DNA of 64,000 bases from Pseudoalteromonas sp. XMcav2-N. GTDB taxonomy: Bacteria; Pseudomonadota; Gammaproteobacteria; Enterobacterales; Alteromonadaceae. A model generated the notes under the pieces. That model worked only from the letters and a program-made list of their open reading frames with translations, made no database searches and was not told the origin of the DNA. Where the stretch lies: assembly GCF_024124545.1 (NCBI RefSeq), contig NZ_JAMXSF010000001.1, forward strand, positions 310,001-374,000, given 5' to 3'. Shown here piece after piece: positions 11,879-15,959 of the stretch. The first letter of the stretch is position 1, and every line of letters starts with the position of its first letter. Both the position numbers and the translations under genes were made by a program.

Positions 11879-11902
11879 GAGCGGCCCAGGCTGCTCTTTT
11901 TT
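11879..11902 (+). terminator. Terminator after the ComEA-like gene
   Basis: Stem GAGCGGC / GCTGCTC (one G-T pair) with a short loop, followed by a run of T. Confidence 0.7.
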
Positions 11903-12815
11903 ATTGTCCATTATTTTGTATCGCCAGATCCTGAGCAAGCGCTTTGGTGATCTGTTGCTCTATTTGCTCCCTGAAATAAGCTCTTTCCGCGTTTGGCAAG
12001 TAACGCAGGTGCAGGGCTAAAAAGTCCTCTTGTTGGTACAAATGACTCAGTGCTTCATTGACGGTTTTAAGGAACTGCCTGGACTCTGGGGTGTCGGAGC
12101 ATGCTATGTGGCCGAGAACAAACGGCGGGTTGTTGGCGACTTCCAGACTATGTAACTGATTTAGCGTCAACTGGCTGGCATAGCGTTGAATCGTCGTTGG
12201 ATAGGTAAGAATAAAGCTGGCCCTGCCTCGTTCGAACATAGTCACAGTGGCTTTGTAACTGTCACCGCCTGGGCGTCGGATCAATTGTGTTTTGCTAATG
12301 CGACTCAGTTGCACATCAAGATAATCTCCATAAGAGCGCTGAGCTTCCGTCAGTAAAGTGGTTCTCGGATGAGCTTTTAATAACGCATTGAGATCGGTTA
12401 GCTGTCCCTGAGCATTGAGAAAAGGAGATAACTCAATGTTTAATGGCAAAAAATACAGCCGATGACTGGGGTATAGGTGTACGGGTAAACTGAACAGGTA
12501 CTGTTTTGCTCTGCGTTGTGTTTTAATCCGGTTTAGTGCACAAAAAGGCAAGGTACTTTGCAGTAACTGATCAATACGAGTACCCGGTGCCAGCAACAGA
12601 GGCGGACGGATAAACCCCGGTGTTTTTTGCGCAATGTAGTCAAAAACCAGGTTATTGGAATCAGTTGATATATCCAGCGCCTGATCTGAAAACATCATCT
12701 TGATATCTAATGGATCATCACTGAGCAACTGAAGCTGAGCCGCTGCTGTAGAGCACAGGCTGATGCTCAAGAACATCACAGTGATAAACAGAAGGGGTTT
12801 AGTATTTGTCATCAT
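11901..12815 (-). CDS. Periplasmic solute-binding-like protein (SBP family 3 type)
   Basis: 304 residues with an N-terminal signal peptide (cleaved near TAAA-QLQLL). The body has the look of family-3 extracellular solute-binding proteins (segments GTRIDQLLQS, LTYPTTIQRYA, HIACSDTPESRQFLKTVNEAL). No permease or ATPase is adjacent, so it may be a sensor-type or orphan binding protein. It starts 9 bp after the TonB-dependent receptor gene, so both are probably co-transcribed and handle the same ligand. The ligand is unknown. Confidence 0.6.
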   Translation of the reverse strand: MMTNTKPLLFITVMFLSISLCSTAAAQLQLLSDDPLDIKMMFSDQALDISTDSNNLVFDYIAQKTPGFIRPPLLLAPGTRIDQLLQSTLPFCALNRIKTQRRAKQYLFSLPVHLYPSHRLYFLPLNIELSPFLNAQGQLTDLNALLKAHPRTTLLTEAQRSYGDYLDVQLSRISKTQLIRRPGGDSYKATVTMFERGRASFILTYPTTIQRYASQLTLNQLHSLEVANNPPFVLGHIACSDTPESRQFLKTVNEALSHLYQQEDFLALHLRYLPNAERAYFREQIEQQITKALAQDLAIQNNGQ

Positions 12816-15246: not shown

Positions 15247-15452
15247 TTGCACTTGATTATAGCAGCAATAAACCAGCTCGTTGGATTGTTTGCTGACTTC
15301 AAGGTCCAAGGGGGATAGTAGATCGCAATAATGTGAAAGGAATATGTCAGTAGCATCACCTTGTAACATTTGTCTGTTTTTTGAACTTGCGGCTAACGAA
15401 AGCTTTGTGATTTTATGGTGTTGAAACAATAACCAAAAAAGGAAGCGAAATA

Positions 15453-15611
15453 ATGAAACTACAATTAAAAACCAGCAAACTAAAACGCCTTAATGAACAA
15501 CACCAACAGTTGGCGATGGCTAACACCCCGCAGGTGGGCGGCGGCTATACAACAAAACCCTGGACGGTTTGGTGTGAAGAGTTAAGCAAAGGGCCGGATT
15601 GTCGCGCTTAA
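15453..15611 (+). CDS. GG-leader small peptide, RiPP or bacteriocin precursor candidate
   Basis: A 52-residue open frame, too short for standard calling. ATG 15453 is preceded by AGGAAG at a good distance. The first 28 residues form a basic, Gln/Lys/Leu-rich leader starting MKLQLKTSKLKRLNEQHQQL, then a Gly-Gly-Gly cleavage-like site (PQVGGG, residues 26-31). The last 21 residues (YTTKPWTVWCEELSKGPDCR and a final A) form a core with two Trp and two Cys. This matches the layout of ribosomally made, post-translationally modified peptides with double-glycine leaders that are frequent in Pseudoalteromonas. No modifying enzyme or peptidase-ABC exporter is in the window. The product and function are inference. 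Confidence 0.7.
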   Translation: MKLQLKTSKLKRLNEQHQQLAMANTPQVGGGYTTKPWTVWCEELSKGPDCRA

Positions 15612-15656
15612 TCTGTATGACTGACGAGTAGAGAAGTGGTGCTGTGCACCACTTTG

Positions 15657-15959
15657 TTATGCCTGCCCTTTGTTAAACTCTGCAATAGCCTGACGCAGGT
15701 AGGGTTTGGCAAACTGGATCTCCAGCGGCACGGTCAGTAGCGGATAAGCCAGCCCACACAGGAGTAAAACGGGTAACAACAGCCAGCCATGGATAAACGC
15801 CAGCGCCATAAACAGCGGGGTGAGTAACATCAGCTTGGCAATGTTGAGCAGGACCTTTTGCGAAGAGGGTAAATGCGCCAGTGCCAGCGCTTTAATACGT
15901 TGTTTATCGCGCAGTGCAAAGCCATCTAATTCGGCCAGTTTACTCAGTCTGAAAACCAT
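15657..15959 (-). CDS. Small membrane protein of unknown function
   Basis: 100 residues. The N-terminus is soluble and charged (SKLAELDGFALRDKQRIKAL), then come two hydrophobic stretches in tandem (LLTPLFMALAFIHGWLLLPV and LLLCGLAYPLLTV) and an amphipathic tail. It starts 7 bp downstream of dsbB on the same strand and is probably co-transcribed with it. I do not recognise a named family with certainty. Confidence 0.75.
   Translation of the reverse strand: MVFRLSKLAELDGFALRDKQRIKALALAHLPSSQKVLLNIAKLMLLTPLFMALAFIHGWLLLPVLLLCGLAYPLLTVPLEIQFAKPYLRQAIAEFNKGQA

Follow-up and report, generated by a model that had tools for sequence, protein, structure and literature searches.

The P0001 gene and its conservation

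The question raised by P0001, a 52-residue frame in the window (the whole 64,000-nucleotide stretch of DNA that was analysed), is whether it encodes a genuine peptide precursor and, if so, which enzymes would modify and export its product. A sequence-only reading had proposed an orphan double-glycine-leader peptide that would need a distant exporter. The gene, a LanA-like precursor gene backed by orthologues and constraint, occupies positions 15453..15611 of the forward strand, stop included. It starts with the ATG at 15453, ends with the stop codon at 15609-15611 and is preceded by the ribosome-binding site AGGAAG (15440..15445, same strand). Its translation joins the leader MKLQLKTSKLKRLNEQHQQLAMANTPQVGGG to the core YTTKPWTVWCEELSKGPDCRA. 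The leader (residues 1-31, 15453..15545, forward strand) is matched by the leader profile A1 described below and ends in TPQVGGG, the GGG being residues 29-31. The core (residues 32-52, 15546..15608, forward strand), whose start follows from aligning the cut site to the family consensus TPQVAGG, holds two Cys, three Thr and one Ser. Frame, ribosome site, GGG junction and residue content, all read directly, are as that first reading had described them.

Just 3' of the gene lies a hairpin (15633..15655, forward strand) found by folding 15612-15665 (-18.6 kcal/mol, z -3.44). It is possibly a terminator common to P0001 and a convergent gene ending at 15657; a terminator scan made no call there. 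A simple scan found no sigma-70-like promoter upstream of P0001, and no NCBIfam or Pfam family model matches the peptide. Elsewhere in the window, the 304-residue gene at 11901-12815 is also without a Pfam match.

Searching 108 genomes of the same genus with P0001 at E<=1e-5 gave a match in 16, comprising its own copy, eight close orthologues (83-98% identical) and seven remote relatives (45-47%). All eight close orthologues lie between a TonB receptor gene and genes for DUF6170-like, DsbB and NUDIX proteins, so that the TonB receptor and dsbB pointed out earlier as neighbours are conserved in 8/8. Both were considered as partners of P0001 and rejected; they are conserved neighbours only. The seven remote relatives have similar core beginnings, and none of the neighbours just named was found within 1.5 kb on each side of them. 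Constraint on the gene is strong: in seven gap-free comparisons with our copy, which are not independent of one another, NG86 dN/dS was 0.026-0.121 (dN 0.016-0.100, dS 0.206-1.52). Summed over these same non-independent comparisons, 21/24 non-synonymous codon differences fell in the leader and 3/24 in the 21-residue core, and no core Ser, Thr or Cys varies among the close orthologues. In the eighth close orthologue (L112) the start of the leader is disrupted. The syntenic orthologues and the dN/dS values establish P0001 as a real conserved gene and led us to reject a chance frame.

One leader, many cores

A search with the single P0001 peptide hit 31 places in its own genome at E<=10, mostly over the leader. 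Profile A1 was built from 28 leaders, P0001 among them (E 2.2e-13 for P0001 against A1), and recovered 64 peptides, these 28 included, with 59 at E<=2.2e-4. P0001 is thus not the orphan that had been supposed; by its leader it is one of about 60 paralogues. In this marine bacterium the family occupies 48 loci on 20 contigs, and 36/48 loci hold one peptide alone. AGGA or GGAG was found within 18 bases upstream of 54/64 members. Mean pairwise identity among the 64 peptides is 44.9% in the leaders; in the cores it is 19.0%, against 17.6% in 500 shuffled-core pairs. Taken together, the orthologue and paralogue comparisons mean that cores are near random among paralogues and nearly frozen among the orthologues of P0001.

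The LxLxKx5L motif is present strictly in 31/64 members and in 53/64 when other hydrophobic residues are allowed; in P0001 the Lys of the motif is replaced by Thr (leader position 7). NCBIfam NF038153 (class I lanthipeptide leader) did not match P0001 and matched 1/26 members weakly; TIGR04149 (rSAM-modified RiPP) weakly matched 2/26 (best E 0.0048). No Pfam family, the Nif11-type leader included, matched P0001 or the 26 members. No clear shared regulatory motif was found upstream of the 64 genes in a scan that excluded the 16 bases adjoining the start, ribosome site included, some AT-rich k-mers reaching or slightly exceeding the maximum of the Markov control. Within 2.5 kb of the peptides (45 regions, 224 frames), any one protein group recurred in four regions at most, and so neither a common partner nor a mobile element came to light.

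A distant LanB-LanC-C39 hub

The genome encodes two C39 exporters, two LANC-domain proteins and one PF04738 dehydratase. Four genes in one direction on contig C5 form what we call the hub: an HlyD-type membrane fusion protein, a C39-ABC exporter, LanC and LanB. The hub LanB (1049 residues) carries both Lant_dehydr domains, N and C, and is related by sequence to solved dehydratases, NisB included; the hub LanC is likewise related to solved LanC-like proteins, including NisC. In class I systems, clustering of the precursor with LanB and LanC is usual, not defining. P0001 is on contig C11, not clustered with LanB/LanC, and no leader match was found on C5 at E<=1, nor in the 19 kb around the hub. 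The earlier statement that no processing gene lies near P0001 was right, and the LanB-LanC-C39 hub on another contig supports the view that this leader would depend on a distant exporter.

Beside LanB lies a gene for a 190-residue protein (L037:7919-8491) without Pfam or NCBIfam match, relatives of which are found in 21/26 LanB regions; it may serve immunity or some other function.

The second LANC protein is on contig C25 and passes the NCBIfam cut-off for class III LanKC. There (L038:401-4724) LanKC is followed by an ABC transporter, with four leader-type peptides farther along the contig. The second C39-ABC exporter is on contig C24 (L036:1554-10021) together with two Cys-less leader-type peptides; the same region encodes a winged-helix regulator-like protein, a relative of which adjoins a Cys-less peptide on C25. 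The Cys-less peptides of C24 and C25 possibly form a separate Cys-less branch.

Co-occurrence of the leader and LanB

The leader and PF04738 LanB were found in the identical 25/79 relatives, all of one genus, and both were absent from the 31 genomes of other genera (0/31 each). In the same-genus set the two again occupied the identical 51/108 genomes, as raw genome counts that ignore kinship, and the agreement may reflect few events. Homologues with the leader/GG pattern are thus present both in the own genome and across the genus. Two of the three outcomes named as refuting the first reading, the absence of such homologues and a lack of constraint, are therefore not what the sequences show. 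In a class-wide sample the leader was found in 2/369 genomes, our own among them; 22/76 own candidates were scored in that sample, which makes its per-genome counts lower bounds. Positive genomes of the genus hold from 1 to at least 69 leader matches at E<=1e-4 (at least 55 in our own), the candidates of the richest genomes having been scored in part, and 47/51 hold exactly one PF04738 match.

LanC exceeded the cut-off in 50/51 LanB-positive genomes. The exception, G032 (L140), has kept LanB, beside which the other three hub genes are missing; no LANC match was found in its genome and one degenerate precursor remains, the picture that a decaying system would give. Among the LanB-negative genomes, one (G086) gave a LANC match that falls short of the cut-off. 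At L141 (G046) a single hub carries two different LanC genes next to each other. LANC frames of LanKC size occur in 10/108 genomes, against 51/108 with the leader. C39 exporters were found in 25/25 LanB-positive and in 12/23 LanB-negative genomes of the genus. As the latter 12 have no leader, C39 does not mark the leader; the leader follows LanB.

Core composition

The 64 cores contain 10.8% Cys, 10.7% Thr and 7.3% Ser, in counts that keep five matches with E above 1e-3 and in which peptide C44:98655 is cut eight residues early. We then analysed the spacing of Ser/Thr by holding the Cys positions fixed and shuffling the other residues within each core, using a cut pattern that differs from that of the composition count. 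Positions 3-7 before Cys held more Ser/Thr than the shuffled cores (235 against 180.7 expected, z 6.75), and positions 3-7 after Cys held fewer (110 against 132.5, z -2.98). In the same test, six other residue classes showed no enrichment before Cys. Overall, the cores look like lanthionine substrates. The fact that 3/64 cores have no Cys means that the leader is not limited to lanthionine-type cores.

In the same 64 cores, Ser/Thr was also enriched two residues after Cys (CPT or CxT; 66 seen, z 6.0), and depleted directly after Cys and two residues before it.

Proposed processing of P0001 and alternatives

Our preferred reading, which we hold to be likely, is that P0001 is a class I lanthipeptide precursor (LanA) that would be modified and exported in trans by the distant hub. 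Several features of a LanA are in place: LanB and LanC in the genome, a core with Cys and Ser/Thr, the GGG, and a C39-ABC exporter beside LanC. The P0001 peptide would be made from its own small gene, and the single LanB dehydratase and LanC cyclase encoded on C5 would recognise the shared leader, dehydrate Ser/Thr residues and close thioether rings onto Cys, in P0001 probably Thr38-Cys41 and Ser45-Cys50. The exporter of the hub would then cut after the glycines, and the core would be exported with the membrane fusion protein. Most of the about 60 scattered precursors, with their unrelated cores, would be served by the same hub. Some observations count against this reading: the Thr of P0001 in place of the motif Lys, the poor fit of NF038153 to P0001 and its relatives, the three cores that lack Cys, the second C39 exporter and the LanKC of the genome, and the Ser/Thr enrichment two residues after Cys, for which the reading offers no explanation.

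The same peptide could instead be an unmodified, disulfide-bonded bacteriocin of the class II or microcin-like type, cut by C39 at the GGG without LanB or LanC and joined through a Cys-Cys bond in the periplasm. The GG leader, the two Cys, the C39-ABC exporters of the genome and the dsbB gene beside P0001 in 8/8 close orthologues would all fit. However, the leader tracks LanB, while 12/23 LanB-negative genomes of the genus have C39 and no leader, and the placement of Ser/Thr around Cys is directional, for which a disulfide has no need. We regard this reading as improbable. Of the earlier proposal that the core is disulfide-linked or modified, the second half is the more probable, with thioether (lanthionine) rings the likeliest core chemistry and a disulfide less likely. 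A chemistry of another kind, for example by radical SAM enzymes, with which related Bacteroidetes GG leaders also occur, could be argued from the weak TIGR04149 matches (2/26 members, best E 0.0048), but the coincidence of leader and LanB in 51/51 positive genomes makes it very improbable.

A partner other than the hub was also considered, either the C25 protein (class III LanKC) or the C39-ABC exporter of C24, as leader-type peptides lie on these contigs (four on C25, two on C24) and the C25 protein passes the class III cut-off. This is quite improbable, if marginally less so than radical SAM chemistry: LanKC-sized LANC frames are found in 10/108 genomes and the leader in 51/108, and both C24 peptides have Cys-less cores. 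That P0001 is a spurious open reading frame could be suspected from its short length, the lack of a sigma-70-like promoter in the scan and the disrupted leader start in L112, but dN/dS of 0.026-0.121, the nearly invariant core and the syntenic orthologues in eight other genomes leave this reading hardly any probability at all.

If P0001 is the class I precursor that we propose, its product might, as a guess, be secreted to interact with other bacteria, either as an antibacterial or as a signal; since the core is so constrained, one could also guess at a fixed target.

Position of precursors relative to LanB

LanB regions of 16-20 kb (26 regions from 25 genomes) contained all four hub genes in 24/26, and 9/26 had no leader match at E<=1. 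The LanB search gave 36 named loci, of which 33 are from Pseudoalteromonas, two from Colwellia MAGs and one from a Psychrobium MAG; at 10/36 a search for leader peptides at E<=1e-3 came up empty, and contig ends cut two of these loci short. Our own LanB is closest to that of P. rubra (97%).

A LanB tree was built from 33/37 loci, leaving out two cut by contig ends and two missed by the motif filter. We called a locus "cis" when a Cys-bearing leader peptide lies within about 3 kb of LanB/LanC, as assigned by eye, and this state changes three times on the midpoint-rooted tree. A Cys-bearing precursor lies near LanC in the Colwellia, P. denitrificans/NBT06-2, P. flavipulchra/piscicida and P. phenolica branches, and none was found near LanC in the P. 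rubra/P. luteoviolacea branch (16 sequences, our own included). That such a precursor lies beside LanC at the Colwellia and early-branching Pseudoalteromonas loci speaks for the preferred reading. On this tree, midpoint-rooted only, the simplest history starts from an ordinary cluster: its precursor gave rise to many copies across the genome, and some lineages later lost the one in the cluster.

At several loci (L148, L149, L151, L153, L155, L163 and L173) leader-type peptides without Cys stand in tandem close to the hub, and their cores repeat motifs such as NTDTVTQ or SSDTSVT.

Comparison with known systems

Class I lanthipeptides are already published for this genus. Pseudorosins A-C, of the same genus as P0001 and of the class proposed for it, come from P. 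flavipulchra S16 and its dehydratase PsfB (Wang et al. 2023, doi 10.1021/acschembio.3c00135, as cited in PMC12819058). The P. flavipulchra LanB locus L167, which we infer to be the psf cluster, encodes a LanB 63% identical to ours and the same four hub genes; unlike our genome and its P. rubra relatives, it has leader-type precursors beside the hub. PciA of Pseudoalteromonas citrea DSM 8771, another class I peptide of the genus, is encoded in a cluster with LanC (PciC) and was modified on heterologous expression in E. coli; the account consulted deals with the cluster of a single precursor, with no word of scattered ones (PMC9993889).

The leader layout and the GG/C39 logic of the P0001 family resemble those of class I LanA leaders of Bacteroidetes, which show LxLxKx5L plus GG (Walker et al. 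2020, PMC7268733; NF038153), although these belong to another phylum and P0001 has Thr for the motif Lys. That survey sought precursors around LanC, and names 10 in one cluster as a notable class I case (PMC7268733).

A parallel to the scatter is found in the prochlorosins and synechococsins (ProcM, SyncM), where one enzyme set serves many dispersed precursors that share a conserved GG leader but differ in their cores, SyncM being associated with 79 precursors (PMC10783134). Our genome agrees with this in the number and scatter of its precursors, in their single leader type and in the divergence of their cores. The differences are that the prochlorosin system is cyanobacterial, with class II LanM and Nif11-type leaders, whereas that proposed for P0001 has separate LanB and LanC; of the two PF05147 matches in our genome, one is a stand-alone LanC and the other a class III LanKC, and neither qualifies as a LanM synthetase. 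By analogy, the P0001 system would work like the prochlorosins, and it is not one.

Natural promiscuity at such a scale is described, in the literature searched, for the class II LanM enzymes ProcM and SyncM (PMC10783134). A term search of a 2025 review of lanthipeptide enzyme promiscuity found neither Pseudoalteromonas nor PsfB named (PMC12328550). No report of scattered class I precursors in Pseudoalteromonas was found in literature searched by title and abstract opening, a body from which subscription papers are largely absent. Within the literature searched, neither the genome-wide scatter of precursors nor the precursor-free hub was encountered.

A possible class I library

We lean towards a class I library in which one LanB-LanC-C39 hub, its own precursor gone, serves dozens of precursors with unrelated cores, each placed independently in the genome. 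If this is true, the library would be a convergent two-enzyme counterpart of ProcM in a culturable Gram-negative genus. Should LanB and LanC indeed handle about 60 unrelated cores, they would provide a second, chemically different route to multi-peptide ring formation, and the hub would be a possible tool for making peptide libraries. It would also follow that cluster-based genome mining overlooks most lanthipeptides of these bacteria, since nearly all of the precursors lie far from the hub.
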